Source: Trileptium ribeirensis
Taxonomy: Eukaryota > Nematoda > Enoplea > Enoplida > Thoracostomopsidae
DNA: 64,000 bases
Reading direction: 5' to 3'
Assembly: GCA_030248225.1 (NCBI GenBank)
Contig: JASANE010019548.1
Location: 61,879-125,878 of the forward strand
In this document: positions 6,725-55,400 of the stretch, piece after piece
Layout of the letters: each line of letters begins with the position of its first letter
How positions within the stretch are numbered: position 1 is the first letter of the stretch
Program-made: the position numbers and the translations under genes
The notes under the pieces: generated by a model
The model's input: only the letters and a program-made list of their open reading frames with translations
The model's database searches: none
What the model was told of the DNA's origin: nothing

Positions 6725-6726
6725 AT

Positions 6727-7884
6727 CTAGTTTTTCGAACTAGAATAATGGTTTGACTCCGCCATACAGCTGTTTACGTTAACTGTAATGTTTCTACCAA
6801 CTCCTTCAAACGAATATTCTACCGGATACCTTTTGCCACCAACGAGGTTGTTGTCATTCATAAAACATCCCTTATACACAAACAGTTTTTCGTTCAAAAC
6901 GAGATATTTGGTGCGATCTCGGGGATCATTATTGAGTTCGGAATTCAGACTCTGAGCATTTTTGTACAATACCGATAGACGAATTCGCTCTTCGGTTGTC
7001 ATTGAACGCCGGGGAAAAATTCCTTTCCACTGTTCGCTGCTTTTCAGATTGTGGGCTTCACGCAGCACAGATTTCACCACGGTAGAGGAGTAGAGCCTTA
7101 CTTTAAGCAGTCGAGGAATTGAATTTTTTGAATTAGAAACTGATTCAGGTCGCTGTCTTTTCGATTCAATTGTCCCCATTCTGAAGACTGATTCCACAGC
7201 AGCACTCTGGTCCAAATACTGGACAATTTCAGTGGCTGTTTTGAGGTCGTGATCGTGATCAATTTCTGTGAGTCCCTTAATAACCAGACATCGGCGATGT
7301 GGGTCTCCCTCAGCTGTATTGATATTGGGACAGAAATTTGTTCTATCAGCAATGTTTCTTGCCACAACTTCTGCAAAAGACAGCGGTTGTGATTGTTCAA
7401 TGGCGGAGGCATTGTCCGTTTAAGTTGCGGGATTTAAAGAGTGTTTAATCGCATCAATTGATGACGTGATTTCATTCATTTGCGCTTGCATGGCGCTAAA
7501 ACGAGCATTAATGGTGTCCAGTTCGGCAGCCACAGGGGTTGTCCGCCGTGAAATGTTTTGACAGCTGCTACAAACTACTTGCACAAAGGAATTTCCTTGT
7601 ATTGCGGCAATGATTTGTGCGTTAAGACCAGTGCATGAGTAGTGTATCCACCCATCGCAGCTATCACATGCGAAACAGTCGTCTCCACCCTCGCGTTGAC
7701 ATTCGCAGCAAAGGGTTGAGCCAACAGGCTTTGTTGTGATCGAAGTTGCAGATGTGTTGAGCTGCGCTGCAGGATTTTGGATAGAGTGTCGTTGAGCAGT
7801 TGATTGTTTTGAACCCTGGGAGCCGTGCGTTCGTACTTGTTTTTCCTTTGAACCGTTTGTTGTGCCGGTTTGTTGAGGTCCCAT
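6727..7884 (-). pseudogene. LINE ORF1: PHD finger plus RRM-like nucleic-acid-binding protein, one stop codon
   Basis: The frame opens with ATG at 7884. Residues 59-108 form a C4HC3 PHD-type zinc finger (paired Cys at 59/62, 70/73, 76, His81, Cys84, Cys105/108), followed by a short helix and an in-frame TAA at 7422-7420. The same frame continues without any shift to a TAG at 6727. The second part has the run of basic and helical motifs typical of LINE ORF1 proteins (SVFRMG, then RLLKVRLYSSTVVKSVLREA, then TTEERIRL), the RRM-like region that packages element RNA. A single nonsense codon between the two domains is the only damage seen, so this is either a recent pseudogene or, less likely, a readthrough stop. 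Confidence 0.8.
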
Positions 7885-8035
7885 TTTTCTGTGACGAACG
7901 GCCGATTTATTGGTGTTGTTAGCCTTAATTGTCGAAGTACGTATCTCCAGATATTCAGCGACAGTAGCAATTTAACGTCCTTAGACAATAATTTGTTATA
8001 TAATATGTCTGGTGTAACGCACCAGAAACGCATTC

Positions 8036-9463: not shown

Positions 9464-10354
9464 TGTAGCGGGTGGAGTCGCTACAAGTTTATATTGGTGG
9501 GTTCAGTGACGCGCCCCTCAACGTTGTGAATCCCAAGTCCTGCCTTCCTCAGATTACTCGAACGCAACAAGTCCTGTCACCACTCCGCCTCGAACTAGTC
9601 ACGTCCTGGCTCACAGTGGAACCGCGAACGAGACAAGTCCTGGAAATAAGCAAGCGACTCGAACTAGTTCAGTCCTGTAACAAAAGGAGGCACGAACCAG
9701 GGTCTTACGATTAGACTGAACAGCCGCGAACGATATTGCGTCCTGGCTAAGAAACACAGTGCACCCCTTTATATAGTCACTTTATTAAACAGTAACAAAC
9801 CAGCTTCATCTAACGGCAAAAGAACGACTTTCGGTGGACCAGAACAAGCGTAACTTACTAACTAAATAATAAGCTTAATAAGCAGGAGCGACTGAGCACT
9901 ACTGAAAACACAGGGAACAGTTTCAAAGGCGCAGAGAGCGTAACTCTAGGCCAAGCTAAGAACCAACTTGTGAAGGAATGCCATGCGAAAGCGTTCTTGC
10001 CTTGCATATATACACAGTTTCATTAAAAGTTCAATGCTGAAAAACAGAATTAAATGTCAGTCATTTCAGAGTCAGATAATGCTATCTTAAATGTCAGTTA
10101 TTTTTAGAATCCAATAATAACAAAAACCTTACACACTACTATCTACAACAAAATGATATTATCCCACTTAGTGTTAGATGTATATATGAATTGTAAAATA
10201 TCAGAACAATTTCAAGCAGCTCAATAGTTCGCAGAAGTTCTTGAGATGTAAACTTCAAACATACACATCAAAAATCTGAGTCAAAACCAAGCGAGCTCAA
10301 TGTACCAGTCAAAACAATAAAACCACCACGCGCAACAAGTTCGGGTTCGCTACA
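9464..10354 (-). repeat. 3' LTR
   Basis: This 891-base copy matches the one at 21365-22259 along its whole length. It begins TGTAGCG and ends CGCTACA, a perfect 7-base terminal inverted repeat. It contains a minus-strand TATA box (9766-9776) and, downstream of it in transcript sense, six spaced copies of a CAGGAC core (about 9740, 9671, 9636, 9602, 9569, 9535). An AATAAA on the minus strand (about 9781-9786) could serve polyadenylation but lies upstream of the TATA box, so that role is uncertain. Confidence 0.93.
9766..9776 (-). promoter_or_regulatory. TATA box in 3' LTR
   Basis: CTATATAAAGG on the minus strand. The matching site in the 5' LTR (21667-21674, TATAAAGG) keeps the core although neighbouring bases differ, which supports function. 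Transcription would start about 25-30 bases further left, placing the CAGGAC repeat array in the transcribed R/U5 part. Confidence 0.5.
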
Positions 10355-10366
10355 TGACCCCCCTTC
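10355..10366 (-). promoter_or_regulatory. polypurine tract
   Basis: On the minus strand the sequence GAAGGGGGGTCA lies directly before the TG of the 3' LTR. This is where the plus-strand primer of LTR retroelements is cut, and the position fits exactly. Confidence 0.75.
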
Positions 10367-10389
10367 GTGCGAAGCGTGGTCCCCACGCT

Positions 10390-12348
10390 TTACTCATCTT
10401 CAAAATCTTCAGAATAGTCGAGCTCAATGTCGTAAGCCCAAAATAAGGGGTCTTCTTCGCAGTGCATTGGCTTCATCACATTCGAAGTGCAATCGGTAGA
10501 AATGATTACCTGATCGACGGATGCATTGCTGGAACACTCACCACTTGACTTGCTCGTTGATTGCTGACTGATTGAGCTCGAGTTACTGGCAGCACCAGTG
10601 GCGATTGGCGTGATAATGTGATGTCGTTCTTGATTTTGACTTGACTCACGTTGTGTCGTTGACGTTTCCGGCAAGGCGCATTTGTTGTTGTCGTGGTTGC
10701 CATCGTCATCGTTGTTGTTCCCTTTATTGTTGTAGTTGTGGTTGTTGTGGCTATTCTTGTTGTTGTCGCGATTGTTATTGTTGAGAATGCTTGGCGTGGT
10801 GGGATGCCGAAAACGTTTGTCGTTGTAACGTTGATCCGTATAACGTTTACTGAGACGGGGGGAGTCACTGATCCGTGTAGCGCGGGTTTCGTCGCTGCGA
10901 TCCCGTCCCTGATTTTGTGTTCGCTTTGCTTCTCGAAGTTGTGAAATCTGACGATCGCGAACCTGATATGATCGACGTCCAGGTCTTTTCGAAACGTCGT
11001 GTTGCGTACGCGTATCCACTAAATGATGGTCTAGATGTTGACGCTTTTTAGCTATCACCTTTGGGAACGAACGCTGATGATAATCATCTTGTCGCCTCTT
11101 GTGAGGGTTAGTTGGCAATTTATTTCGATTCGTTGATGTATTGCCAGCAGTTTGTGCCTGTTGCTGCTGATGATGCCGTCGTTGATGATACTGCTGCCAT
11201 CGTTGCTCACGATGATTGTGTTGTTGTCGATAATGCTGCAGTCGTTGATGATGGTGAACTCGTTGTTGATAATGACGCCGATGTTGCTCGTAATAGCGTG
11301 TTCTTCTTGAGGACTGTGAAACCGGTCGTTTGGACAACGATAATGAGTTGAGCGGAGTTGATTCACGAGCAATTAATGAATGAAGTGCCTTCGGGGAATC
11401 ATTGGGAATCGTTTTAGTCGGAGATTTTGATGTTCGGATTTCATTGATGGTAGTATTAATTGTTTTTTCCGTAGTTTTAACTGATGGCGGACATATTCCT
11501 GTTGTAACTGTCGAATCAGCATTAGATACATCGTTTGACTGATGACGATGCTGCATCGCACGACGCCTGCGAACATGACGCATCTTGTTTGTCTTTTTTC
11601 GAGCAGCTGAAGATCGGCGGCCTTTTTTCCGCTTATATGATGTTTTACCATCAGAAATAGTTACAGCTGATTGGGGTGCTGACGTTGGTAACGCGTTGGC
11701 TTGGCCGGCAACACTATCTATTGTCATTACTGAAGACTGTATCGGCAAATCCGTCGTAGTTCCATCAGACGGCGGCTTTCTCGGTGTTGACATCGAGCAT
11801 GATGCTAGATCTGCCACAGGTGAAGACTGCATCGATGTTTGTTGCATCGTTGGACATATCGTGGGGTCACCAGTGGTGGGGAAAATTTGCACTATCGACG
11901 GTCGTGGCGTTGCAAATGAAGCGTCATAGCTGGCTTCCTGAGAAGGCTGCTGACTTATTTGCGTTAACGGCTGAGTAACGGAAAAAATTTTCGGCATTTT
12001 ATTGAGAAACGATTCACCACCATCGTCCATCATTTGAAAAATTTGCGGTACGTGACAGGAAAGCTGACGCTTCGGTGATGGCGAAGGTGGAACATAGTCG
12101 ACTGGAGATGAAGGCGGAGCAAGTGGATATTCGGCGGCCATTTGGTACGGTGTCACGATTGAACTAACAACTATAGTGTCATTGGTGTTTGAAGAAATTA
12201 GGCGCTTTGGCTGCATCCGTAGCTCGTCTGCTAGAATTAAGTTCGTGTCACGAATTGTTATACGGGAGGCGGCTTTGAGGCATGCAAGTTTAGTAGGGGT
12301 GAGGTCAGGCCTCCGATTTAAATGTTTGTTTTTAGTACCATTCAGCAT
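10390..12348 (-). CDS. accessory ORF of the LTR element: basic low-complexity protein with acidic tail
   Basis: This 652-codon ORF starts at an ATG at 12348 and ends 35 bases before the 3' LTR, the place where env normally sits in gypsy-type retroviruses. It has no signal peptide or membrane segment, so it is not an envelope. Residues 60-235 are Ser/Thr/Pro/Gln-rich. Residues 237-270 are a dense Lys/Arg block (KRKKGRR...RHVRRRR) that would act as a nuclear signal or RNA-binding patch. Residues 345-395 are His/Arg/Gln-rich, and 522-556 are almost pure Asn/Asp. The last 22 residues are acidic with aromatics (FWAYD...DYSEDFEDE), like an acidic activation domain. I infer a nuclear regulatory or RNA-binding accessory protein; no homologue is recognised. 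It lies in a separate ORF 329 bases past the Pol stop, so a spliced or subgenomic RNA is likely. That it stayed open over ~2 kb argues it is used. Confidence 0.75.
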   Translation of the reverse strand: MLNGTKNKHLNRRPDLTPTKLACLKAASRITIRDTNLILADELRMQPKRLISSNTNDTIVVSSIVTPYQMAAEYPLAPPSSPVDYVPPSPSPKRQLSCHVPQIFQMMDDGGESFLNKMPKIFSVTQPLTQISQQPSQEASYDASFATPRPSIVQIFPTTGDPTICPTMQQTSMQSSPVADLASCSMSTPRKPPSDGTTTDLPIQSSVMTIDSVAGQANALPTSAPQSAVTISDGKTSYKRKKGRRSSAARKKTNKMRHVRRRRAMQHRHQSNDVSNADSTVTTGICPPSVKTTEKTINTTINEIRTSKSPTKTIPNDSPKALHSLIARESTPLNSLSLSKRPVSQSSRRTRYYEQHRRHYQQRVHHHQRLQHYRQQHNHREQRWQQYHQRRHHQQQQAQTAGNTSTNRNKLPTNPHKRRQDDYHQRSFPKVIAKKRQHLDHHLVDTRTQHDVSKRPGRRSYQVRDRQISQLREAKRTQNQGRDRSDETRATRISDSPRLSKRYTDQRYNDKRFRHPTTPSILNNNNRDNNKNSHNNHNYNNKGNNNDDDGNHDNNKCALPETSTTQRESSQNQERHHIITPIATGAASNSSSISQQSTSKSSGECSSNASVDQVIISTDCTSNVMKPMHCEEDPLFWAYDIELDYSEDFEDE

Positions 12349-12677
12349 TTTAGAGTATAAAACCGGTTGTTGACTATTACCTTTAGTAATTGCAGAATAT
12401 CGTGGTAATTGTTTTTATTGGTATGAGTAAAACTAGCTGATTGTAGTGATAAATTATTATTACCATAGGTAGTATTGCTAATTTGTTGCGAGCGAAATGT
12501 AGATGTATTGGTGTGAGTTTGACTCGTTGCGTTATAGGTTAATAAGAGATGTACTGAGTAAACAGCGATTACTTATCTAAAACTATTATATTCATATAGA
12601 CTAGGCCTAATATATGGTTATATTGTGAATATAAGATAATATATATTAGATATACAGCTTGCTAAAACAACAAAACA
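12349..12677 (-). other. gap between Pol stop and accessory ORF
   Basis: This 329-base AT-rich spacer has acceptor-like minus-strand sites, for example GTTTACTCAG near 12560, that could serve a spliced mRNA for the accessory ORF. No other ORF is seen. Confidence 0.4.
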
Positions 12678-15600
12678 TTACAAATTAGAATCATTCATAG
12701 CATTCCCTTGGTCGCCACCAGGATGGTGTGATCTTAGGCTATATGGACATGTCGTCCTGAATGACTGCGATGTCTGGGCGGGCGAAAGCTCGTCTTCATC
12801 ATGTTCGATTTCACGTTCGATTCCATCCGAAGAATGTAAAGGTACTGGACCCGGCGTCGGCGCTGCGTGTTTTAGTCGACTAGTATTAACTCGCTTAAGT
12901 GTAGCACCCGGACAACACTTGATGGGCAAAAGATACGCGCCTGTACCATCAGCAGACATTCGAATGATGCGAAATGGACCGTGCCACTGACGTGTCAATT
13001 TACGTGTCTTACCTTGCGGAATATAGGGCATATGCAAGAACACGCGGTCACCTTCGAGAAACGACTGTCCCTTACACATTTTGTCATAATGTCGTTTTTG
13101 TCGGAATTGCGCTGCTCCTAAAGCACCGATAGCCTTGTCCCATGCTTCCACCATCTGCGAAGACATTTTAAAAGAATATTCGTCCGTGTCAGACACAGTA
13201 ATGGTTGACTGTCGCACTAGTATGTCCAATGGCAGCTGTGCATCTCTACCAAAGTTTAGAAAGAACGGTGTTTCTGCTGTTGATTCCTGAACACTGTTGT
13301 TGTAAGCGAAGCGTACAAAAGGCAACATGAGGTCCCAGTCATTTTGAGGTTTGTTCACGAAAATTCGCAGCATGTTTTCCATCGTCCGATTGAATCGTTC
13401 CACCAAGCCATTGCCAGACGGGTGATATGCAGTGGTTTGAAGCTTTTTGATTCTGAGTAGAGTACAGACATTTTGCATTAGTTCGGACGTATAATTTGCA
13501 CCTTGATCGGAAAGCAGACATTCTGGCACACCAAATCGACATACTATGTTTTCAACAAACAATTTGGCGACACGACTCGCTTTTGCATCCGGCACGGGAA
13601 AATATTCAACCCATTTCGTAAACGAGTCAGTGAATACGATTATGTACTTGTTACCGTTCTTCGTTCGCGGAATGGAACCTACGATATCAGTTGCAACCCG
13701 CTGCCATGGTCGACTAACTGGAATAGGCTGTAGAGGGGGGCGATAGCGCACCGGAGGATCTTTCGCTGCAGTGCATGCTGGACACTGCTTGCACCACCGT
13801 TTAATATCATCACGCATGGCAGGCCAATAATATTTCGCGGCTATCTTTGAATACGTCTTTCGAACACCAAAATGACCCCCCATGAGGTGATCATGACAAG
13901 CCGTCCAAATTTGATTGTGTAGTACTGTTGGTGCTACTAATAGATCTCTGTTACCTGTGATACTGTTCCTGCGCCAGAGAATACCATCCTTTAGATAACA
14001 ATCTGTGGCGACGCGAGCAAGGTTTTGAGGCAGCGACGAGAAGTGGCCGTTTTTAAGCGCTTTTATCAAAGGTCCAGTAACATCGTCACTTTCTTGTAGT
14101 TCACGTATGTCCACTGGGTTACCATTTTCCATGGGTTCGAGCTGTTCTACGATTGAAATATTCAGTACATTGTGCGATGAAAGAGCTTGCTGATACATGT
14201 CGTTACATATTTCACACCTTTCGAGTGGTAATTGTTCGGGTGTCTCCTCAGCCGCCGGTCTACGAGATAGAGCGTCAGCGTTGCCATTATGGATTCCAGG
14301 TTTGTGAAAAATCTCCATGTCATACTCCTGCAACATTAAACTCCAGCGGCAAAGTCGACCATGAGGATCTTTTACGCTCAATAACCAACGCAATGGCTGG
14401 TGATCGGTAACCACCGAGAATTTTCGCCCATACAAGTATGGTCGAAACTGCTTGATTGCCCAGACCACAGCCAATGTTTCCCGCTCCACAATAGGATAAC
14501 GTCGTTCGGCTTTCGACAGGATACGACTAGCGTAGTAAACAGGATGCTCTTTGCCGTCGTCATGTGTTTGACTCAATACAGCACCAATGGCGAAGTCACT
14601 AGCATCTGTTTGTACAATAAACGGCTTTGTTTCGTCAGGAAACGCCAAAACGGGTGCAGAGCTTAGAAGCCGTTTTAATTTATCGAAGGCGGTCTGACAA
14701 TCTTCGGTCCATTGAAATTCAATGTTTTTCTTGTATAGAGCGTGCAGGGGACTTGCTATTTTTGCGAAACACCATACAAATTGTCGATAGAATCCAGCCA
14801 AACCCATGAACGCCTGAACTTCCTTCGCTGTTTCAGGAACAGGCCATTTGACGACTTTTTCAACTTTGGAGCATTCAGGAAAGAAACCATCAGCCGAGAG
14901 CACATGCCCAAGAAAAGGGACCGTACTACGGCCAAATTGGCATTTCTTCATCTTCAATTTGAGACCTGCTTGCCGGATTCGTTGGAAAACCAAGCGCAGT
15001 CGTTCTAGCATCTCTGCGGGTGTACTGCCCATGACCAAAATATCATCGAGGTAAACCAGGCAAACCTTCCAGTCTAGGCCCGTCAAAACGTTCTCCATAA
15101 AGCGTTGAAAAGTAGCAGGCGCATTGCTGAGTCCAAATGGCAGACGCACAAATTGAAACAAACCTTCGTATGTAGTAAAAGCAGTTTTGTGCTTACTCGA
15201 AGGATACATGGGAATCTGATGATAACCACTGTGCAAATCAAGCGTGCTGAAGAAACGGGCTCGCTTCAGTGATGCAATAACATCGTCGATTCGTTTCATA
15301 GGATATTGATCTTTACGAGTAACAGCGTTTAGCTTTCGATAATCGACACAAAAGCGCCATGAGCCATCTTTTTTCTTAACCAATACGATGGGTGATGCCC
15401 AGTCACTTGCAGATAGTTCAATGATTTTATCCGCAAGCATGCTTCGTATCTTCTCGGCAATGACAGGACGAAGAGAAAATGCAGTGCGGTACGGCTTTTG
15501 ATGAATTGGCGCTGCGTCCCCAGTGTCAATTTTATGCGTCACCAATTGTGTTCCTTGCAACTCATGATCACCTCGAGCGAAAATATCTTCGAATTCAATC

Positions 15601-18600
15601 AATAGCTTAAGCAAAGATTGTTTGTCGGCTTGTTCGAGGGTGCACTTGTTCAAATCAAGATCCCGAAGTTTAGAGTGCTCAGTTTGTGCATCACAATAAT
15701 CGATGTTGCAAACTGTGGAGGACTGTTTTTGATCAATCAGTTGACAATCAATGGTGACCACGTCGTCATCCTCCAGCGTGGATTCAATTGCTACTCTAGT
15801 TCCCGCAGACAGTGTAATCGGCCTCCGTGTAGGGTTTAGAATACGCACCGGAATTTCTGACCTTGTTTTCGGGTACACAATTTCTGTAGCAATGCAAATA
15901 CCTCGCCGCGCGTTAAGTATGAGCTCCGATTCGACCAACCGTGGTTGTCCAACCGGTAAGCCACCTCTTGCCGGTGCAATCATCTCAGTTCGTGGAGGTA
16001 TTTTGATAGTATCGATCAAACAAACGGAGGCGGTCTGAGCAGTTATCCGTGGAGCTTGGGTTTGCAATGACTGCCCACCAATTTCAATTCGACCTTGCCG
16101 AACATTCATGACAAAGGTTCCCACTTGTGCGAGAAGATCCCGTCCCAGCAATACATCGCAGGGAAGGTAACTTGTTACAGCCAAAGGTCCCTGCAGTTCC
16201 AGATTGCCGAGAACGACTTTCACCACAATATATCCAGCCACAGGTAGTATGTGTCCAGAGGCAGAACGAATATCACGACCGTTCGACAAACGTTGTAGTT
16301 TAATATCGTTTTTCAAAAGGCCAGTAGCCTTCTCCGCAATTAAAGAAATTTGAGCCCCCGTGTCAATCAACGCACGCAGCTTGTAGCCATTCACATCCAC
16401 CAATGCTGTTCCGTCCCATTGATGCGTGGTTCGAACGCCAACAGTGCACAGATTGTACGGCGAAAACTGGGCATTCGATTCATGATTAACTCGTGGAACA
16501 GCGCGTTGGACTTGTGGTATTTCAACATCCTGCTGTTGCTCAGTAGCAACTTCAACAACTTGTGCAAATCTGGGTTTGAAATATTTAAAAATAGGGTAAT
16601 CAAAGACATTTGCTCGTCCCATTACTTGCTGCGCTAGTGGTGTTACCGGTATCAAGTTTCGACAACACTGAAACATCATTTTGATTGTAACGCATAGGCA
16701 GCAACCGAAAACCCACAATTGAATTGGATCTGAAGTAAATCCCCGCAAGAAACCAAAAAGTCCCATGCTGACAATATTCATAGCTGTTCTATCAGCGACG
16801 TCGTTGAGCGACCGCTCATCGTTTTGTTCACCGCTAAGGTACTGGAGGATTTGTCTTTGTCGATTGAAATCCCGGAAAAGATCGTTAGTGGAAATATGAG
16901 AGTTGAATTCCTTGATAGTGTACATTACTACAGGATGGAAAATGACGTCTGGCAATGTTTGTAGATTATTGTAGCCAACATGAAATGACGGTAACTGGTG
17001 TACGTTAGTCGCGGGTCGTAAATCTCCGGTATGGTAGAAAACGTACGTGCCGTTGCGAAGTGTCAGTGGACGCTGTTGAAGATCTAAGCAGCGGGTATCA
17101 ATTGTCTGAAAACGGTGGATTTCATTTGTAGTGGAGTCCATATACCCAGTATTTAATTTACCGTGCAAAGAAAACGTGATTGGTATATCTAAGGAACAGG
17201 TATCGTTAGTGGGTAAAAAACTGAAAGCACCGTCTTCCAATTCCAAACAGGGACGTACCATTACAAAGTTGCCACCAGATCGAGCGACAATGGTTGACGT
17301 ATTGAGTAACTCCCGGATGGCATGCGTTGGATTAGTTAACAATTCGGTGATGAGAAGGCGATACACATGCTGCATGGCATGGCATGTCGTCGAAAGGGCA
17401 TGTGAAAAAGAAAACTCGAATGATTTACGCGTATGAACCTCCAATGCCTGTAGTTCGGCAGCTAATTGGCTGGAAGTTACCATACCTGTTTGTGACTGAC
17501 GGCGCACACGTTTTTGTGGCTGCACAGGGATTACCGAATTCGCCGCAGAAATAAGTTTCGGTTTCTCTGAATCTAGTATTCTAAAAGGAATTCCCTGGTC
17601 ACTGATTTTGATCGGGAAGCCGTCACAATCTATCACTTGCCGTTGTTTCGTGAATGTCAATGCGAGGGTGCCGTCATTTGACAACCAATCCGTGTCACTC
17701 ATCTTGCCATGGACTACTTGCCAATTTATCAATGCGCACATCTCCGTTCGGTTGGGGTGCCAAAACAAAGATCGCCCATCCTTCAAACTGCATGCGCCCT
17801 CTTCATATCGACAATGAGAAACGTCACCAACCGTTGACTCCATTGTTTGCTCGCCATGACGTTTATACACTTTTGTTCTTGTAAGGAAGCAATTCGTGGC
17901 CGAAAATTTTTTCCAATAGCAACAGTTGACTCCACCTCCAGGATAATGCCAATTTACTTCATTATCCGTTCTCCATACGTCACCATGCTCGTGCAATTCT
18001 CCGACATGGCATTGATGAAATTTCCTCATTCTGGAACACTCAGTAACACTAACGGGCTCGGAATTTGTTGCGGACCTTTTCAGATTTTCGTCGTTGAAAA
18101 AATACGTGAGTGTTTCAACTTTCGTAGTTATTATTTGACATATCCACGCGTCGCTGGTATATTGGAGAATGTTTTGTCGGTACAATTGAAGCGTTGTATC
18201 TGTTGGAAGTTCTATGCGCTGTCCACGGTTGGCCACGCAGCTAGGCAGGTCAGGTAACTTCCATAACTGTTGATGAGATGAAATGTCACACAGCAGTGGA
18301 TTTGGAAAATTCAGGGTCCATATCGGGTTCAGACAACAAAACAGCAGAAAGATTAGCAGGCATATTTGTTGCCATACAACGTGTGTTGTTCCAACTCGTT
18401 GAGCAGATAAATGAGGCGGTGTAATCCTTGTGTCCGTTTGTGGTAGGTGAACTATGCATACGTTTTCAGTTGGCTCATTTGTTACCAATGTTGTCTTTGG
18501 CGACTGACAAACTTGTTCATTGTTTGATTCTCGCACGTTTTCTGCGGAGGTCATCGACGCACGTAGTGCTGTAGTACCATAGTGCTGGTTGAATAATGCA

Positions 18601-20966
18601 GTATCTTCGTGCCGTAATGTTTCGGAATTAGGCCAAGGGCAAGGAACTGCTCGTTTAGCTCCGAAAAATTCTGGCATCAGCGGTTCAGGATATAAACGGC
18701 GAAATAATGTTGGCTCTGGAGCCGCCCCAATGTAGCATCCAGTTTCCGAGTAATAGTCCGATGTCGCTGAATGAACTTCATTCGCACGGGTTCGTAACGT
18801 AAACATTTCTTCCATTTTAACGATGCCCATGATTTTGCCTGGCATTGCCTTCTCAATCTCCTGACGCTCCACACTAGGATTTCTCATCAGCTCCGTTGCG
18901 AAATTTTGTACCCTAAACGAAAACGAGTGCGCGAATGCAATACGACCTTCAAGGCTCAAATATGGTAGATTTGGAGTCAAAATACCTTGAATTTGTTCGG
19001 TGCTAAATAATAATTCATTATCGAGCACGAAATTAGATTTTAACCGGGCTTGGCTCTGGAAGAATCCATAGCGATGAAAACATTGACGGCCGAACGTGAG
19101 CAGTATTGGGGATACACCCATTAACGGTAGCAGGTTTGACCAATATATGTTTTTAGCACGATTTCCAACAACGTACTGAACCCGTAGAACTGCTTTAGAA
19201 ATCAGATCATCGAGCTCTTTGCATGCCACCTGTTTGTCCTCTTCAGCGAGCCCTAACAAGTCGTTGGATCCAACGTGAATAGTTAACGTGTCCACTATGT
19301 TGGGTGACACTGAGTCCAAAGCACTATCGAGATGTAGGCAGATATTACTCAGACTGGCGTCTTTCGCTGCAACAACCACAGTGTTTTCAGTGTTAGGAAA
19401 ACCGCTGAGCTGCATGTCACCAACGAACAGATGTTTAACCTCAGGTAAGGAATATTGTCGTGGCACACAAGTGTACTCTTTTCTGGACGCGTCAATAACG
19501 CGACAGGAACCGTCGTGTCTTAATGACACTTCATGATGAGACATTTTGGTCGTCGCAATATTTCCTTCGGCGCCCTTTGCTTTGTCACTATGTGCATCTT
19601 GTTTGCGCCTTTGCATGTCGATATTACCGGCGTTTGAGAAGTCTACCGCAGCCAGCTGTTCTATTTCATCCTGAGATTCTATTTTTTTAATAGTACATTC
19701 CAGACCTTTTTCTACTTTTTCATCTTGTTTGGTTAGCTCGTCAGTATATTCATTCATCATTCCAACAAACGAGGTGATTTGCCAGCCTGGGGTTGTTGTA
19801 ATGGAACGGCCCTCGAAGTCCATCACAGGAATCGTAGCAGTTGGTGGATCGTGGATAGCATTGGCGGTGGCGGTGCTATTACTTCCAGGAACTCGTGCGT
19901 TCATTATAGGTGGACCGATCCGGTCGCGACGAAATTCTCTATTCTGTGCAATGTTTTGTCGCTGGCGTTGGCGACATTCCTGAGTAGTATGACCACTCGA
20001 CTGATGAAATTCACAGAAGGGCCGCTGCTTTGCCCTAGCATTTGACCGACAATTGATTGCGATATGCCCTGTACGACCACAAATCTGGCATATCGGGCGG
20101 CTGTTTGTTGAATACTGCTGTTGTGGGAACATGGGTAACTGATATGAGCGTATTGCCGGCCGTGTGCTTTGCTGTAAATTGGCATATTCACAGGCCTCAA
20201 TACGCTTTATAAGACGATCTACCCACTCAGGTTGTGCCGAAGACTGACTTGGATCGTGCCGATTGTATTCGTTGTATTGCTGTTTGTGAGAGCCTTCTAG
20301 GTTGCAAACACGGTTAACTAGGTTTAGTGCCCACACTGGTGTTTGTTCATTAGAACACCCCAGAGCGGCAACTTGCGACGTACCAACCTTTTCGATGCGT
20401 TCAAGTCGTCGGGCGACCTCTTCAAGGCTTTTTGCGATCTCAGGTTGCGCCTTTAACTTGTTTTCAACTCGCTCGGATGCAATCAAGGCTTCACTCATCG
20501 TCTTTGGTCCCATGCATTTTACCTCTTCTCGGATTTCTGGTCGTAATCCGGCAATGAATTGACTCATTAAATTCTGCTCTCTTTCCTGCTTGACTGTCAT
20601 ATAGCTTAGGGCGGATCGGGCCAAATCTGTTATATCACGAGCATAAGCACCAACCGATTCACCGGCTTTTTGCATTCGGCTCGTGTATTGCTCGCCCAGG
20701 TATCGTTTACGGTCATCAGTAAGTAGTGATGCAGTCAAAGTTCGAACAGTAGCTTCGTAATCACGCCTAACATCGTCTTCGAGACTGTTGAATACAAATT
20801 GAGCTTGACCTTCAAGGTGAGCACCAAGAATGAAGCTTTTGTTCTCTGCAGACCATCCGTTGGCAAAAAATTTCGTCTCGAATTCGTTTTGGAGCCAACT
20901 TTGGAAGTCTTCGCCGCGTGCACCTCCAAATCTTTTGATAGCGAGGTTCGGGCCACGTGATGCCAT
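12678..20966 (-). CDS. Gag - SGNH-like - membrane glycoprotein - protease - RT - RNase H - integrase polyprotein
   Basis: The frame is open from 21107, but its first ATG is at 20966 in a strong context (GCCATGG), giving 2762 residues; numbering is from that Met. Gag: zinc knuckles at 293-306 (CCHC) and 318-331 (C-x2-H-x4-H-x4-C). SGNH-hydrolase-like domain about 508-690 with HVGSND at 564-569, but GDM replaces the catalytic GDS (Met518) and Tyr669 stands where the catalytic His is expected. Membrane glycoprotein about 866-1434: hydrophobic signal/anchor 866-884, about 16 ectodomain Cys, N-glycosylation sites at 1072, 1222, 1254 and 1305, a furin-type KRVRR at 1152-1156, and a C-terminal transmembrane stretch about 1410-1434 followed by CC. 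Pepsin-like protease with DTG at 1535-1537. RT about 1848-2023 with YLDD at 1972-1975. RNase H about 2119-2235. Integrase with HHCC zinc site (2360, 2365, 2395, 2398), D2427/D2487/E2523 with D-35-E spacing, and GPF at 2663-2665. All catalytic residues of Pol look intact. Glycoprotein between Gag and Pol in one frame is not the usual retroviral order. Confidence 0.92.
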   Translation of the reverse strand: MASRGPNLAIKRFGGARGEDFQSWLQNEFETKFFANGWSAENKSFILGAHLEGQAQFVFNSLEDDVRRDYEATVRTLTASLLTDDRKRYLGEQYTSRMQKAGESVGAYARDITDLARSALSYMTVKQEREQNLMSQFIAGLRPEIREEVKCMGPKTMSEALIASERVENKLKAQPEIAKSLEEVARRLERIEKVGTSQVAALGCSNEQTPVWALNLVNRVCNLEGSHKQQYNEYNRHDPSQSSAQPEWVDRLIKRIEACEYANLQQSTRPAIRSYQLPMFPQQQYSTNSRPICQICGRTGHIAINCRSNARAKQRPFCEFHQSSGHTTQECRQRQRQNIAQNREFRRDRIGPPIMNARVPGSNSTATANAIHDPPTATIPVMDFEGRSITTTPGWQITSFVGMMNEYTDELTKQDEKVEKGLECTIKKIESQDEIEQLAAVDFSNAGNIDMQRRKQDAHSDKAKGAEGNIATTKMSHHEVSLRHDGSCRVIDASRKEYTCVPRQYSLPEVKHLFVGDMQLSGFPNTENTVVVAAKDASLSNICLHLDSALDSVSPNIVDTLTIHVGSNDLLGLAEEDKQVACKELDDLISKAVLRVQYVVGNRAKNIYWSNLLPLMGVSPILLTFGRQCFHRYGFFQSQARLKSNFVLDNELLFSTEQIQGILTPNLPYLSLEGRIAFAHSFSFRVQNFATELMRNPSVERQEIEKAMPGKIMGIVKMEEMFTLRTRANEVHSATSDYYSETGCYIGAAPEPTLFRRLYPEPLMPEFFGAKRAVPCPWPNSETLRHEDTALFNQHYGTTALRASMTSAENVRESNNEQVCQSPKTTLVTNEPTENVCIVHLPQTDTRITPPHLSAQRVGTTHVVWQQICLLIFLLFCCLNPIWTLNFPNPLLCDISSHQQLWKLPDLPSCVANRGQRIELPTDTTLQLYRQNILQYTSDAWICQIITTKVETLTYFFNDENLKRSATNSEPVSVTECSRMRKFHQCHVGELHEHGDVWRTDNEVNWHYPGGGVNCCYWKKFSATNCFLTRTKVYKRHGEQTMESTVGDVSHCRYEEGACSLKDGRSLFWHPNRTEMCALINWQVVHGKMSDTDWLSNDGTLALTFTKQRQVIDCDGFPIKISDQGIPFRILDSEKPKLISAANSVIPVQPQKRVRRQSQTGMVTSSQLAAELQALEVHTRKSFEFSFSHALSTTCHAMQHVYRLLITELLTNPTHAIRELLNTSTIVARSGGNFVMVRPCLELEDGAFSFLPTNDTCSLDIPITFSLHGKLNTGYMDSTTNEIHRFQTIDTRCLDLQQRPLTLRNGTYVFYHTGDLRPATNVHQLPSFHVGYNNLQTLPDVIFHPVVMYTIKEFNSHISTNDLFRDFNRQRQILQYLSGEQNDERSLNDVADRTAMNIVSMGLFGFLRGFTSDPIQLWVFGCCLCVTIKMMFQCCRNLIPVTPLAQQVMGRANVFDYPIFKYFKPRFAQVVEVATEQQQDVEIPQVQRAVPRVNHESNAQFSPYNLCTVGVRTTHQWDGTALVDVNGYKLRALIDTGAQISLIAEKATGLLKNDIKLQRLSNGRDIRSASGHILPVAGYIVVKVVLGNLELQGPLAVTSYLPCDVLLGRDLLAQVGTFVMNVRQGRIEIGGQSLQTQAPRITAQTASVCLIDTIKIPPRTEMIAPARGGLPVGQPRLVESELILNARRGICIATEIVYPKTRSEIPVRILNPTRRPITLSAGTRVAIESTLEDDDVVTIDCQLIDQKQSSTVCNIDYCDAQTEHSKLRDLDLNKCTLEQADKQSLLKLLIEFEDIFARGDHELQGTQLVTHKIDTGDAAPIHQKPYRTAFSLRPVIAEKIRSMLADKIIELSASDWASPIVLVKKKDGSWRFCVDYRKLNAVTRKDQYPMKRIDDVIASLKRARFFSTLDLHSGYHQIPMYPSSKHKTAFTTYEGLFQFVRLPFGLSNAPATFQRFMENVLTGLDWKVCLVYLDDILVMGSTPAEMLERLRLVFQRIRQAGLKLKMKKCQFGRSTVPFLGHVLSADGFFPECSKVEKVVKWPVPETAKEVQAFMGLAGFYRQFVWCFAKIASPLHALYKKNIEFQWTEDCQTAFDKLKRLLSSAPVLAFPDETKPFIVQTDASDFAIGAVLSQTHDDGKEHPVYYASRILSKAERRYPIVERETLAVVWAIKQFRPYLYGRKFSVVTDHQPLRWLLSVKDPHGRLCRWSLMLQEYDMEIFHKPGIHNGNADALSRRPAAEETPEQLPLERCEICNDMYQQALSSHNVLNISIVEQLEPMENGNPVDIRELQESDDVTGPLIKALKNGHFSSLPQNLARVATDCYLKDGILWRRNSITGNRDLLVAPTVLHNQIWTACHDHLMGGHFGVRKTYSKIAAKYYWPAMRDDIKRWCKQCPACTAAKDPPVRYRPPLQPIPVSRPWQRVATDIVGSIPRTKNGNKYIIVFTDSFTKWVEYFPVPDAKASRVAKLFVENIVCRFGVPECLLSDQGANYTSELMQNVCTLLRIKKLQTTAYHPSGNGLVERFNRTMENMLRIFVNKPQNDWDLMLPFVRFAYNNSVQESTAETPFFLNFGRDAQLPLDILVRQSTITVSDTDEYSFKMSSQMVEAWDKAIGALGAAQFRQKRHYDKMCKGQSFLEGDRVFLHMPYIPQGKTRKLTRQWHGPFRIIRMSADGTGAYLLPIKCCPGATLKRVNTSRLKHAAPTPGPVPLHSSDGIEREIEHDEDELSPAQTSQSFRTTCPYSLRSHHPGGDQGNAMNDSNL

Positions 20967-21344
20967 GGCAAAATTGTTTTGTCGGAGATTATCCTTTAAT
21001 GTTTGTTGGAAACGGTCGGTACAATCACATACAGCAGACGACGAGGTTGTTGGATTTGCTATCGTGTGTTGGGATTGGGTTTCAGCGAGCTGGTTTAGTA
21101 TTTTCAAATGTTTGCCGAGTTCGGTTGTTATTGGAGTTGGAAGCGTCGGCTGATACCGAGTTCCTGCGGCTCAGTAGCTTTGGTTTGGTATCCGGACCTG
21201 GCAGGGTGGCGGTTGAATGGATTGGAAACAGGTGTCAAAACAGGTCTACGAACGATTGGCAATCGGGAACTATATGCTGTACGATGCTTTGGTTGTTGTA
21301 AAATTAACGAACGATACACGATAGGAGAACGAGTAGTGTGCTAT
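20967..21344 (-). other. 5' leader of the LTR element
   Basis: This stretch lies between the primer site and the first ATG of the polyprotein. The polyprotein frame is already open from about 21150 without any ATG, so a non-AUG start or a splice junction in the leader cannot be excluded, but the Kozak-like ATG at 20966 is the simplest start. Confidence 0.5.
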
Positions 21345-21363
21345 GGTCCCATCGTGGTCACCA
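21345..21363 (-). promoter_or_regulatory. primer-binding site
   Basis: One base inside the 5' LTR the minus strand reads TGGTGACCACGATGGGACC. It begins with TGG, complementary to a tRNA CCA end, and the first 8 bases fit the 3' end of animal tRNA-Trp (GGTCACCA); further inward the match has mismatches. Trp priming is known in some gypsy lineages such as CsRn1. The tRNA identity is an inference. Confidence 0.5.
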
Positions 21364-21364
21364 A

Positions 21365-22259
21365 TGTAACGGGTGGTGTCGCTACAAGTTTATATTGGTG
21401 GGTTCAGTGACGCGCCCTTCAACGTTGTGAGTCCTAAGTCCTGCCTTCCTTAGATTACTCGAACACAACAAGTCCTGTCACTGCTCCGCCTCGAACTAGT
21501 CAAGTCCTGGCTCAGAGTGGAACCGCGAACGAGACAAGTCCTGGAAATAAGCAAGCGACTCGAACTAGTTTAGTCCTGTAACAAAAGGAGGCGCGAACCA
21601 GGGTCTTACGATTAGACTGAACAGCCGCGAACGATATTGCGTCCTGGCTAAGAAACACAGTGCACACCTTTATAAAAGATACTTTATTAAACAGTAGCAA
21701 ACCAGCTTCATCTAACGGAAAAAGAACGACTTTCGGTGACCAGAACAAGCGTAACTTACTAGCTAAATAATAAGCTTAATAAGCAGGAGCGGCTGAGCAC
21801 TACTTATAACACAGGGAACAGTTTCAAAGGCGCAGAGAGCGTAAGTAACTCTAGGCCAAGCTAAGAACCAACTTGTGAAGGAATGCCATACGAAAGCGTT
21901 CTTGCATCGCTTATATACACAGTTTCATTAAAAGTTCAATGCTGAAAAACACAATTAAATGTCAATCATTTCAGAGTCAGATAATGCTATCTTAAATGTC
22001 AGTTATTTTTAGAATCCAATAATAACAAAAACCTTACACACTACTATCTACAACAAAATGATATTATCCCACTTAATGTTCGATGTATATATGAATTGTA
22101 AAATATCAGAACAATTTCAAGCAGCTCAATAGTTCGCAGAAGTTCTTGAGATATAAACTTTAAACATACACATCAAAAATCTGAGTCAAAACCAAGCGAG
22201 CTCAATGTTCCAGTCAAAACAATAAAACCACCACGCGCAACAAGTTCGGGTTCGCTATA
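21365..22259 (-). repeat. 5' LTR
   Basis: This 895-base partner of the 9464-10354 LTR carries the same TATA core (21667-21674) and CAGGAC repeats. Differences from the other LTR include a 4-base insertion near 21843 and scattered transitions. Its outer end reads CGCTATA where the partner has CGCTACA. Confidence 0.93.
21667..21674 (-). promoter_or_regulatory. TATA box in 5' LTR
   Basis: TATAAAGG on the minus strand, equivalent to the site in the other LTR. It is the probable promoter for the element's genomic RNA. Confidence 0.5.
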
Positions 22260-22271
22260 TATATATTATTT

Positions 22272-22800
22272 TGCGCGAGAAAACTTAAGGTGACCCCGTT
22301 AACCATCCTATTTTGCAATTAAATTTTACATAAAATTTGTTAGCGATAGCTTTTTGATCAAGTGAAATTCGGCGTAAAACTGACACGAACACAGCGCTCA
22401 TGATTGAAATCTAACCATTTTGTGTTCGCAAAAATTCAAGGAAAATTACCCAAATTTTGAAAATTTGTCTATTTCAACAAAACTAGTTTTTGTTCGCGAA
22501 CGCCAAAAGCTTAACTATAGGATCGATTTGATTGTGAGGTCACTTTTGCATTAAATTTGTTCGCAAACACTTAATAATAATCTAAATTTAAATGATTTGG
22601 CATCAGGGAACCGAATTTCTGCAAATTGAAATCGCCGAAATTCTGTTCGCACACAATGTCTAATTTCTGGCACTTGATAATTTTCGGTTAGCGAAAACCG
22701 AATGAAATTTAGCCTTTTTTCTGTAACAAGGGTTTGCGATCCGATATCGGAAATGACAAAATAGGATTGTTGGCGGGGTCACCTTAAGTTTACTCACGCA
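22272..22800. mobile_element. MITE with ~44-bp terminal inverted repeats
   Basis: The left end TGCGCGAGAAAACTTAAGGT and the reverse complement of the right end (TGCGTGAGTAAACTTAAGGT) match, and the match continues inward for about 44 bases (GACCCCG...CCTATTTTG) with few changes. There is no ORF inside. A diverged copy of the same terminus lies at 30508-30556. The LTR element inserted about 12 bases from its left end. Confidence 0.75.
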
Positions 22801-23416: not shown

Positions 23417-25370
23417 GCACAATTATTATTATAATTTTTCTAATAATTATCTATGTTTTGCCACAGTAAGCGTTGTTATTAATTTTACAACCTTTTAAAT
23501 ATTAAATTTGTATTCTTCCTGAAAACGGAAAAAAAAGACTTTCATTAATGTTCGCCGTTAATTTATTACAGTTTTAATTTCGGTCGCTCTATTCTGGACA
23601 GTCTATTGGCATACTAAAACATTATAGTCGGTTTTTATCTCTATTACGTATGTATGTACACAGTATTGCTCTGGGTTCACATTTTGTTGACATAACACTC
23701 ACTTCGGGTTCATACGTCCGTTTACTGCATCGAACCACATACTGCAGTTTGAATATCCAACGATTACACCAAGGCTTCGGTCAGTCGTTATACTTTCATC
23801 TATCTGTCAGTGGTAGTGTTGAATCGTACCCCATTGTACCAAAAATTACGATACTGTTCAAAATCCATCTAGTACCGATCTCGATAGCATCCAAGCATTT
23901 TGATAACAATAACACAATAATAATTATTTTGGGACTTGTCATTTCAAGCAGAATAGTAATGATTATTTCTCAGATTCCCTTCTTTGGTCACGTCTCACGC
24001 ACAACAAACTAAGCAAGTTTCAGCTGACTAGCACACCTTTCAACCCAGATTAAATAGTATGATCATGAGTACAAGTGCAATAGAAACCTTCAAATTGCAG
24101 TCATATTTACATCTTTGACCACTGAGTCAAAGTTGTGGCGAACTGAGATGACTGAAAGTGCTGACCATATTCAACATAGTATGCCATTCACCGTAGCCGA
24201 ATTATATTTTCAATCCTGGCGACTAGGCTAAAAATCGCGAGATTTCTTCTAGCTGTGTTAAAATCGCGAGAAAATGAGCAAAAATTTTCAAAACTTTTGA
24301 CTCCCAAAATATTACGAACATTTATCCCACCTGACAAGTTCCCCCATGGTGATAACATCCCCGAAGTTCTCGCAATCCCCCTAAGGCTTCGGACCTCACC
24401 GATGCATTACCAAATACCGCTGTGTTACGTACTGACGTAGGTACTTGCAAACAAGTTAAACAATCATCTCTCCGTTACCATTATTATCCAATACTTTTGC
24501 GCACCATTCTGATACTTCGTCACCGGTTAATCACCGATAAACAGCGGCTCGTTGTTGTAAACATTAAGTGCCTCACAGCTAATGAAGAACCCGACAAAAC
24601 GATCACGATGACCATCTGCTTCAACAACTACACTGGAGCAAACACATTAATCTTCGTCCTGTCGCGTTTGCACAACCTGTCCACGCTAGAAAATTTGCTC
24701 ACCTAACCGGCCGTAGAGATCCATTCCAAGGCTGAGCAAAATCTTCTAGCGTAGCAAATTGTGCTTACTTTCTACACAGTTACACCGGAGCATCACTACG
24801 ATATATGATTAGCTAATCCAAACACATTAGACATCGTGTTTAGCTATCCACAACCGTTCACCAACATGCTTTCATATCGCAATGGTACTTGAACGCGTTG
24901 TAAAGTATTGCATTGAATTTTGGCTACGTAGACCGTATCAATGTCGTTTTTCGTGGATACAATATTCACATTCGATGCAGAGTCAGATGGAATAATATTA
25001 ATACAATTAGTCACCAGATTATAAAGATAGCTGACTTGGCAACGTGAAATTCCAATGAAATATCTATGTATGACTTAAACTATGTACGTCATTCTCGGCA
25101 CCATCGTGCATTTGTATAAGCAGGATATTCCTGACAACTTAGTTGGTTAGATTACAAGTCTCAGTTTTCGCTTGTATGGAAATTTAATACCAGGTATAAA
25201 CGAAAAAACTATGTTTTACTTATTGCTAACTGATAAACACTGTTTTCGCATTTTCTCGTTTCGAACCTCGTAAATGCAGTTACGGACAAAATCAAACGAA
25301 TTAATGCAACTAATCTTGCTCAAATTTATAACAAATTGATATGCTTTCTGTCATTGTTGTTGCTAACTTG
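23417..25370. other. AT-rich stretch without identified genes
   Basis: Contains a 120-codon plus-strand ORF (23650-24012) with no domain or splice context, judged to be chance. I searched the minus strand for the remaining NUB1 exons (UBA repeats) and found no convincing match. Confidence 0.35.
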
Positions 25371-25897
25371 CCAAAAAATCTGCTTTTATTGCTGTCCCTA
25401 ACTGTATTTGATTTTTGTTTTTGTAAGTTGCTGATGCTGAGCGCTTCGTATTAACTGCCAAAAAATCTGCTTTTATTTCTGTCCCTAACTGTATTTGATT
25501 TTTGTTTTTGTCAGTTGCTGATGCTGAGCGCTTCGTATTAACTGCCAAAAAATTTGCTTTTATTTCTGTCATTAACTGTATTTGATTTTTGTTTTTGTCA
25601 GTTGCTGATGCTGAGCGCTTCGTATTAACTGCCAAAAAATCTGCTTTTATTTCTGTCCCTAACTGTATTGGATTTTTGTTTTTGTCAGTAGTTGCTGATG
25701 CTGAGCGCTTCGTATTAACTGCCAAAAAATCTGCTTTTATTTCTGTCATTAACTGTATTTGATTTTTGTTTTTGTCAGTTGCTGATGCTGAGCGCTTCGT
25801 ATTAACTGCCAAAAAATCTGCTTTTATTTCTGTCCCTAACTGTATTGGATTTTTGTTTTTGTCAGTTGCTGATGCTAAGCGCTTTGTACTAACTGAA
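25371..25897. repeat. 87-bp minisatellite, six copies
   Basis: Units start at 25371, 25458, 25545, 25632, 25722 and 25809; five steps are 87 bases and one is 90. All are multiples of three, so the minus strand stays open through the whole array (29-residue repeat containing NTKRSASATDKNKN). The right edge of the array coincides with the probable donor of NUB1 exon 12, and each unit repeats a relative of that exon-intron junction. I regard the long ORF as intronic repeat, not protein. Confidence 0.8.
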
Positions 25898-37289: not shown

Positions 37290-37940
37290 GCACAAGTTAC
37301 AGCAAAACTAACACCGGCAATGAGTTTCCCACGCCCCAAAACCCCCAGATGCAACTTATCAGCCGCCCAGGACGTTTGAACAAATTTTTGAATTTTGGGT
37401 CGGGGAACCATTAGGGCACCATGTCTCAAACACCATAATTCTAGAACCAGAGCCTTAATCGAAAAACAAAAAGGGAGATCGGTAGTTATCATTTTACTAT
37501 AAAATACAACCATCCAGAGATAAAAATAACCTTGCTTTCGTGAAGGGTACTAAAAACCCTCGTTTTGACCTCTGACCCCGAACCATGGGGCGTCATGCCC
37601 CGTATCCATGGGTCAAAGAGCAAAACCAATACCGGCAATGAGTTTCCCATGCCCGAAAACCCCAAGTGAAACTTATCAGCCGCCCAAGACGTCAGAACAA
37701 ATTTTCAAATTTTGAGTCGAGGAACCATTGGGGCGCCATACCCCCGTACCTCAAACCGCATAAATCCAGAACCGGAGCCTTAATCGAAAAATAAAAAAGA
37801 GAGATCGGTATTTATCATTTTACTATAAAATACAACAATCCAGAGATAAAAATAACCTTGCTTTCGCGAAGGGTACTAACAACCCTGATTTTGACCTCTG
37901 ACCCCGAACCATGGGGCGTCATGCCCCGTACCCAATAGAC
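37290..37940. repeat. two tandem ~318-bp satellite monomers
   Basis: Units begin near 37303 and 37621 (ACACCGGCAATGAGTTTCCC and ATACCGGCAATGAGTTTCCC) and share long blocks such as GGAGATCGGTAGTTATCATT and ACCTCTGACCCCGAACCATG. Fragments recur at 26630-26885. The array is followed by a family B repeat (37960-38360). Confidence 0.8.
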
Positions 37941-54361: not shown

Positions 54362-54731
54362 AGACCCCTTTTGGTGACAGCCGTTTTTGTGGTCCCAAGT
54401 GGTACCTTTTCAGAAACCTCAAAAACGTGCGTAGTGTTTTGACAAACATTCGAATGCATCAGAGCACCTTTTCAGAAACCTCGCAAAATATGTCAAAGCT
54501 CCTCAAAAACGTGCGTTGTGTTTTGCCAAACATTCGAATGCATCAGAGCGCCTTTTCAGAAACCTCGCAAAAGATGTCAAAGCTCCTTAAAACCGTGCGT
54601 TGTGTTTTGACAAACATTCGAACGCTCCGCAAATTTTACGGCGTCTTTTCAGAAACCTCAAAACCGCGCGTTGTAATATGACAAACATTAGAGTGATCCA
54701 CCACAAAAACGGCTGCCATCAAAAGGGGTCT
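54362..54731. mobile_element. MITE with ~33-bp inverted ends and internal tandem repeat
   Basis: AGACCCCTTTTGGTGACAGC at the left and the inverted right end AGACCCCTTTTGATGGCAGC match, continuing through CGTTTTTGTGG. The flanks show a TA duplication. The inside is built from ~100-bp units (TTTTCAGAAACCTCGCAAAA, CAAACATTCGAATGCATCAG), about three and a half copies, which keep a plus-strand frame open for 84 codons by chance of unit length. Confidence 0.8.
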
Positions 54732-55039: not shown

Positions 55040-55400
55040 ATATTCCATTTGTGCAGCATGAATTCCAAGACATTTACAAAAACGCAGCGCTCCATTTGAA
55101 AAAAGCAACTCACTAAAGTAGAAATGACAATTATATGAAGCTCAACACCCTGATGAACGAAAACATATTTGTGCAGCAGGACTTCCAAAACATTTACAAT
55201 AAACGCAGCGCTCCATTTGAAAAAAAAACGCAACTCACTAATGTAGAAATGACACTTTTGTGAAGCTCAACACCCTGATGAACGAAAACATATTTGTGCA
55301 CCAGGACTTCCAAAACATTTACAATAAACGCAGCGCCTCATTTGAAAAAACCACAACTCACTAAAGTAGAAATCACATTTTTATTAAAGCCATACTCTCT
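55040..55400. repeat. ~125-bp tandem repeat, three copies
   Basis: Units share TTTACAATAAACGCAGCGCT, CAACTCACTAAAGTAGAAAT and AAGCTCAACACCCTGATGAA; the third copy is the most diverged. Confidence 0.8.

Follow-up and report, generated by a model that had tools for sequence, protein, structure and literature searches.

The 64,000-nt stretch of Trileptium ribeirensis DNA analyzed here (contig JASANE010019548.1, positions 61,879 to 125,878; hereafter the window, whose coordinates are used throughout) carries a long terminal repeat (LTR) element of about 12.8 kb on the minus strand, at 9464-22259, with a Ty3/gypsy-type Pol. Its long open reading frame, ORF1, runs without interruption from Gag through a spacer domain and a glycoprotein to protease (PR), reverse transcriptase (RT), RNase H (RH) and integrase (IN). 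In retroviruses and env-carrying retroelements, env usually comes last and is made from a spliced RNA; here the Env-like segment, a class III fusion glycoprotein as judged by sequence profile, lies between Gag and PR, and the same order recurs in copies across the host genome. ORF1 and its parts are:

12678..20966, minus strand: ORF1, Gag-spacer-glycoprotein-PR-RT-RH-IN without interruption, 2762 amino acids (aa) from ATG
20538..20819, minus strand: Gag capsid-like region, a weak Retrotrans_gag match (residues 50-143, E value 7e-4)
19974..20090, minus strand: two zinc knuckles, CX2CX4HX4C at residue 293 and CX2HX4HX4C at residue 318
18747..19469, minus strand: spacer domain (residues 500-740), conserved in many copies
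16665..18371, minus strand: class III fusion glycoprotein by sequence profile (residues 866-1434)
18303..18371, minus strand: internal signal-like hydrophobic segment of 23 residues (866-888)
17499..17513, minus strand: KRVRR furin-type site (residues 1152-1156)
16671..16727, minus strand: C-terminal hydrophobic stretch, probable transmembrane anchor (residues 1414-1432)
16119..16403, minus strand: aspartic protease, DTG at residue 1535
14901..15380, minus strand: RT, YLDD at residue 1972 (E 7.9e-36)
14322..14636, minus strand: RNase H (E 9e-44)
13419..13931, minus strand: integrase, H2C2 and rve core

The length of 2762 aa is counted from the ATG (the list of open reading frames begins ORF1 at a TTG, 21107); dinucleotide shuffling of this DNA (200 trials) gave ATG-started frames of at most 202 codons. 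Searched as four pieces, ORF1 matched Pfam families in the order Retrotrans_gag, zinc knuckles, Monjiviricetes_fusion, aspartic protease, RT, RNase H and integrase, the zinc knuckles falling under the Pfam cut-off with the motifs themselves plain. The initial annotation had described just such an uninterrupted frame, with Gag zinc knuckles, a glycoprotein, DTG, YLDD, RNase H and integrase, and every domain it listed was detected. Among the solved structures compared, those of Ty3 were closest to the RT-RNase H piece (4ol8, 9.9e-78; 7q5b, 2.4e-77), followed by 8r0s (4.2e-48), and the hallmarks of Metaviridae (Ty3/gypsy) are all present: LTRs, a Gag zinc knuckle and the order PR-RT-RH-IN. A PHROGs search returned no matches and NCBIfam a single chance-level one.

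The glycoprotein and its fusogen class

Residues 866-1434 contain 23 Cys, 16 of these between residues 893 and 1293, and four N-x-S/T sites; the signal anchor, many Cys, N-glycosylation sites, KRVRR site and C-terminal hydrophobic stretch (a modest one) that had been read into this segment at the outset were all located there. Hydropathy and Cys conservation together give the feature set of a class III-type protein: a signal segment, a single C-terminal transmembrane segment and a Cys-rich ectodomain.

The class itself comes from profile searches, which had been proposed as the check on this segment and which led to class III families. The ORF1 piece matched Monjiviricetes_fusion in Pfam at E 1.7e-6, with 26.8 bits against a cut-off of 27. 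Against the PDB (E up to 10), a profile of eight pieces gave two matches, one to Envelope glycoprotein B (5.1e-3) and one to ORF8 (5.6e-4), and a profile of nine proteins gave four, every one named glycoprotein B (gB), the best at 7.2e-4. A profile of 20 sequences, made of the earlier relatives plus copies from the host genome, matched 19 distinct PDB sequences within an E limit of 10. Herpesvirus gB took the top 15 places: 13 had E values no higher than 3.8e-5 (best 2.9e-11), and the remaining two had 0.56 and 0.6. The other four sequences, among them one ribosome-assembly GTPase, were at chance level. Some of the gB chains are listed as BALF4, GP110 or ORF8, which we take to be names of gB. 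Among the 20 members of this profile, Pfam matches at E up to 0.1 went to Monjiviricetes_fusion in 17 (best 4.2e-10), to Glycoprotein_B in six (best 8.6e-8) and to BDV_G in three (best 1.3e-6).

The Monjiviricetes_fusion, herpes gB and BDV_G families are class III fusogens. At the level of sequence profiles, and over part of its length, these matches support the glycoprotein as a class III viral fusogen whose likely kin are chuvirus/mononegavirus-type and herpes gB glycoproteins. Capture of a herpes gB in the narrow sense was considered and rejected, since the Monjiviricetes profile matches more members (17 of 20 vs 6 of 20).

Copies in the host genome and relatives outside it

The host assembly is a draft (687 Mb in 20,229 contigs). 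Searching it with the glycoprotein gave 77 matches scored among 552 candidates, the copy under study included; 61 of the 77 covered at least 500 of the 569 residues, and among these 61, 43 were free of stops and 30 lay in open frames 2000 aa or longer. All 30 glycoprotein loci examined have PR downstream and either Gag or the spacer upstream, and at 22 of the 30 a single open frame takes in Gag/spacer, glycoprotein and PR. Approached from the other side, 29 of 30 PR-RT loci had the glycoprotein just upstream, the exception (L040) having only 226 bases before the match. In the wider set of 85 PR-RT matches, a listed glycoprotein match lay just upstream of 55, and five of the remaining 30 were inspected as loci, four of which do carry a glycoprotein. 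The 30 loci are not independent, as several pairs are more than 97% identical and the copy under study is counted in both locus sets. The gag-env-pol layout had been put forward as the trait of a lineage, to be abandoned if related copies lacked the segment or held it as a one-off insertion: the layout is present in both locus sets, and neither was seen.

The features of the glycoprotein are retained together with its position. Six of the 30 loci were dropped from this comparison for stops; among the 24 stop-free copies, the N-terminal hydrophobic segment was present in 22 and the C-terminal one in 23 (thresholds 1.6 and 1.3), the ectodomain Cys count was 15-17 in all 24, and a basic site between the SDQG and LQAL motifs (by a lenient pattern) was present in 21, the SDQG-LQAL stretch not being found in the other three. 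The ratio of nonsynonymous to synonymous substitution (dN/dS) was estimated for 14 closest pairs, some sharing members, from 25 of the 30 loci: it was 0.09-0.24 in the eight pairs with dS above 0.05 and 0.15-0.61, on few changes, in five nearer pairs, while one pair was identical. The glycoprotein is thus under purifying selection between copies. Further, glycoprotein distances track PR-RT distances closely (Mantel r 0.926, a value that none of 2000 permutations attained) in 20 of the 30 loci, the other ten having been set aside because of stops, broken frames, absent domains or too little overlap. This tracking fits a single acquisition followed by long co-inheritance rather than repeated swapping. 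The stop-free glycoprotein alignment left out 8 of 25 sequences as duplicates or close kin. Near-identical copies sit on different contigs, which suggests recent movement of the element, allelic or duplicated contigs being an alternative source of such copies.

The spacer domain is the variable part of this layout: within 1.5 kb upstream of the glycoprotein, some loci have the spacer and others Gag itself, which suggests that element layouts exist both with and without it. By eye it carries motifs like those of SGNH hydrolases (GDx without Ser, and HxGxN), with the catalytic Ser absent. A genome search with the spacer gave 99 rows, and 13 of 18 spacers were aligned (five left out); one of the 13 members matched Lipase_GDSL_2, at E 0.031, and the PDB gave no match below E 0.4. 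With that lone weak Pfam match and no convincing PDB match, an SGNH identity was dropped as a firm claim.

Protein searches gave eight relatives outside the host genome (P0004-P0011), and parts of the same order recur in them. Two of the eight join knuckles and glycoprotein: P0005 has CCHC knuckles and then the glycoprotein, and P0009 aligns to Gag (element residues 13-311, E 1.7e-17) and, further along, to the glycoprotein. One, P0007, has the glycoprotein followed by PR. P0008 looks like a chimeric prediction: its two glycoprotein pieces come after one protease and, judged by eye, are followed by the start of a second. Residues 194-203 of P0007 read DGDVESNPGP, ending a few residues before the signal segment, and match the 2A ribosome-skipping consensus; in the 30 host loci, the open frames that carry the glycoprotein showed no NPGP. 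Searches of viral contigs with glycoprotein queries (P0002, P0011, P0007, P0004) and an RT piece, and of prokaryote genome contigs and phages with glycoprotein queries, found no relative.

ORF2, the LTRs and the neighborhood

The remaining features of the element lie outside ORF1:

21365..22259, minus strand: 5' LTR, 895 bp, first dinucleotide TA, not TG
9464..10354, minus strand: 3' LTR, 891 bp
21346..21364, minus strand: probable primer-binding site TTGGTGACCACGATGGGAC, putative, immediately inside the 5' LTR
10355..10370, minus strand: polypurine tract, adjoining the 3' LTR
10390..12348, minus strand: ORF2, 652 aa, at the usual env position, a putative accessory protein
12662..12677, minus strand: splice-acceptor-like TGTTTTGTTGTTTTAG, by consensus only, just past the ORF1 stop

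The LTRs are identical at 854 of 889 aligned bases (3.9% different), and TATA stands on both outer flanks, a candidate 4-bp target-site duplication in AT-rich surroundings.

ORF2 exceeds what chance would give (in 500 shuffles of its region, the longest ATG-started frame was 275 codons). It is rich in S, T, Q, N and H, with low-complexity stretches, an Arg/Lys-rich patch at residues 230-270 (net +16) and an acidic C-terminus; a hydrophobic segment and a Pfam family were both looked for in it and neither was found. A reading of ORF2 as the true Env was rejected, as it has no hydrophobic segment. A genome search with ORF2 gave one further match, interrupted by stops, and three stretches at the ORF2 place of other copies were searched: one (contig C1419) matched the N-terminal part of ORF2 at 39.5% over 81 aa (E 1.8e-6), and the two other copies inspected gave no convincing match. 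ORF2-related sequence was thus seen at only two other places in the genome search and the copies inspected. A 719-aa frame at locus L061, similar to ORF2 in composition, was set aside as a clean homologue: the tblastn match just given lies in the preceding 286-aa frame, the best alignment of the 719-aa frame was no better than E 1.1, and this frame was absent from the matches of the genome-wide search with ORF2.

Cer1 of C. elegans offers a comparison for this arrangement: it too is a Gypsy/Ty3 element with a gag-pol without a stop and a large 3' ORF at the env position that codes for a non-Env protein, that ORF encoding part of CERV, which is required for export of the genomic RNA (PMC10309623). 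It differs in that the account in PMC10309623 describes no glycoprotein between gag and pol in Cer1 and has CERV made from a spliced mRNA. From its position and composition, our guess is that ORF2 might play a role in genomic RNA export like that of CERV.

Elsewhere in the window, an inverted repeat resembling a miniature inverted-repeat transposable element (22272-22800; 49-nt arms, 86%, 431 nt apart) abuts the 5' LTR, and a degenerate non-LTR element with endonuclease and RT occupies 4215-8033 on the minus strand, with a weak PHD-finger-like match upstream. A tandem array of about six copies of an 87-bp unit lies at 25364-25895, with more tandem repeats at 37301-37934 (unit 326 bp), 54417-54622 (84 bp) and 55047-55417 (125 bp). 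Rfam and tRNA scans of the whole window gave no matches, and ten long reading frames that were searched matched no family.

Env as a proposed domain of Gag-Pol

We consider it reasonably probable that the element belongs to the Ty3/gypsy group as an endogenous, retrovirus-like member and that its Env is a constant central domain of a single membrane-threaded Gag-Env-Pol polyprotein. For such a polyprotein we infer the topology, the processing, the absence of splicing, particle formation and cell entry. Cytosolic translation of Gag would come first; the internal signal sequence would then send the growing chain to the endoplasmic reticulum, the ectodomain passing into the lumen until the C-terminal anchor halted transfer, and PR-RT-RH-IN would again be made in the cytosol. 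The lumenal cuts would fall to signal peptidase and to furin (at KRVRR), the cytosolic ones to the element's own protease. Gag and Pol would thus start out tethered to the membrane that carries Env, coupling particle assembly to envelope incorporation with no env splice, and one acquisition plus co-inheritance would explain the many copies.

Several observations weigh against such a polyprotein. For assembly, a 1:1:1 supply of Gag, Env and Pol, with neither frameshift nor stop, would be out of the ordinary. Stops or frame changes interrupt the chain at 8 of the 30 glycoprotein loci, four of the eight outside relatives (P0004, P0006, P0010, P0011) show the glycoprotein alone, and at least one relative, P0007, may separate Gag from Env at translation, because the 2A-type motif precedes its signal segment. 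The C-terminal hydrophobic stretch of the copy under study is modest (1.63), and the homology to gB is partial, the best stretch covering about 190 of 676 profile positions. The history of this copy is also not simple, because an LTR divergence of 3.9% predicts about 6.7 stops in a neutral frame (probability of none about 0.001), whereas none interrupts the 8.3-kb frame; its intactness could reflect selection, recombination among copies of the element or gene conversion of the LTRs. Finally, ORF1 does contain a weak donor-like site (18985) and a weak acceptor-like site (16834), and our splice scans relied on a simple consensus.

Such sites would serve a different scheme, in which one RNA retains the env segment while a second, from which it is spliced as an in-frame intron, encodes ordinary Gag-Pol, the open frame being a by-product. 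Splicing is the customary retroviral route to Env, and a better donor-like site (AAGGTAAGA at 13012), together with the acceptor-like site at 12662, stands near ORF2. Cer1, with its gag-pol free of stops, still splices for its 3' protein (PMC10309623). Against this, no donor within Gag or glycoprotein sequence scored 8/9 or better in the consensus scans, which also found no strong acceptor from 21576 to 13728 and no strong donor/acceptor pair bracketing the glycoprotein, and the joint frame has been retained across strongly diverged copies; we regard removal of env as an intron as unlikely. It is also conceivable that the glycoprotein has been kept as the membrane-targeting part of Gag, for intracellular budding or germ-line vertical transfer, with fusion lost or irrelevant. 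Its fixed place beside Gag and the numerous copies suit that role, and its fusion activity is putative; yet the ectodomain has been retained in full under purifying selection, along with its Cys and a basic cleavage site, all of which would be superfluous for a mere anchor, and we judge this explanation distinctly improbable. That a viral gene was joined to a retroelement by a one-off insertion, mis-assembly or chimera is scarcely credible: beyond the draft state of the assembly nothing speaks for it, and the order is the same in both locus sets (30 of 30 and 29 of 30), which are spread over many contigs, and partly preserved in outside sequences.

Other retroelements share parts of this design. 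Atlas virus, a belpaovirus-like element of hookworm, likewise has Gag, Pol and a membrane-fusion Env in one uninterrupted frame (a single polyprotein of 2828 aa, no introns), with the order Gag-Pol-Env, a class II phlebovirus-like Env and a belpaovirus Pol (PMC9094657); the element described here has neither a C-terminal Env nor a belpaovirus Pol. Anakin of mosquitoes is an LTR element with a chuvirus-type glycoprotein, its Pol being Pao (BEL/Pao; PMC7642597), whereas the RT here is Ty3-type among the solved structures compared and not BEL/Pao. Bdelloid rotifer LTR elements include a family with a captured fusion glycoprotein (TelKA) and others that carry ORFs of the GDSL/SGNH type, but these are ORF3s and the Env is paramyxovirus F-like (class I) in the description of PMC5408684.

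Insect errantiviruses, too, are Ty3/gypsy elements bearing Env, which according to PMC12992720 is F-type and encoded as a third ORF. The glycoprotein here is not this F-type (class I) Env, because its profile matches are to class III families, which set it apart; nor is it a separate ORF downstream of pol, lying instead between Gag and PR, with an ORF2 that has no hydrophobic segment. The proposal that it was acquired separately from the errantivirus env agrees with this difference in class, as far as the Env described in PMC12992720 is concerned.

Class III glycoproteins are reportedly shared with env-carrying animal gypsy elements: PMC13172572, citing Chary and Hayashi 2025, states that gypsy elements and RNA viruses alike have type III fusion glycoproteins, and a survey reports no clear evidence for capture of Jingchuvirales glycoproteins by Gypsy elements (PMC10084718, in the part that bears on this point). 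A class III env in gypsy as such is already mentioned in PMC13172572. The unusual point is therefore where the glycoprotein lies and the frame it shares, not its class. Our literature search for a retroelement with gag-env-pol order or a 2A-linked env found no report, Chary and Hayashi 2025 lying outside its reach, and a search on gB and Mavericks likewise found none; further literature searches led to related work only.

It is possible, and we put it forward tentatively, that these elements form a previously undescribed lineage, with Env built into Gag-Pol as its membrane-spanning central domain, with joint production of Gag, Env and Pol in a topology like that of alphavirus or flavivirus polyproteins, and with a nuclear, Rev/CERV-like accessory protein at the classical env position. 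If the Gag-Env-Pol polyprotein is real, splicing of env would be unnecessary, and Gag and Pol would be attached at the outset to the membrane that holds Env. Elements of this lineage, numerous and under purifying selection, would then represent another route to virus-likeness, with a class III fusogen placed within Gag-Pol, and the element offers a testable case for how often fusogens of the negative-strand-virus type are captured.
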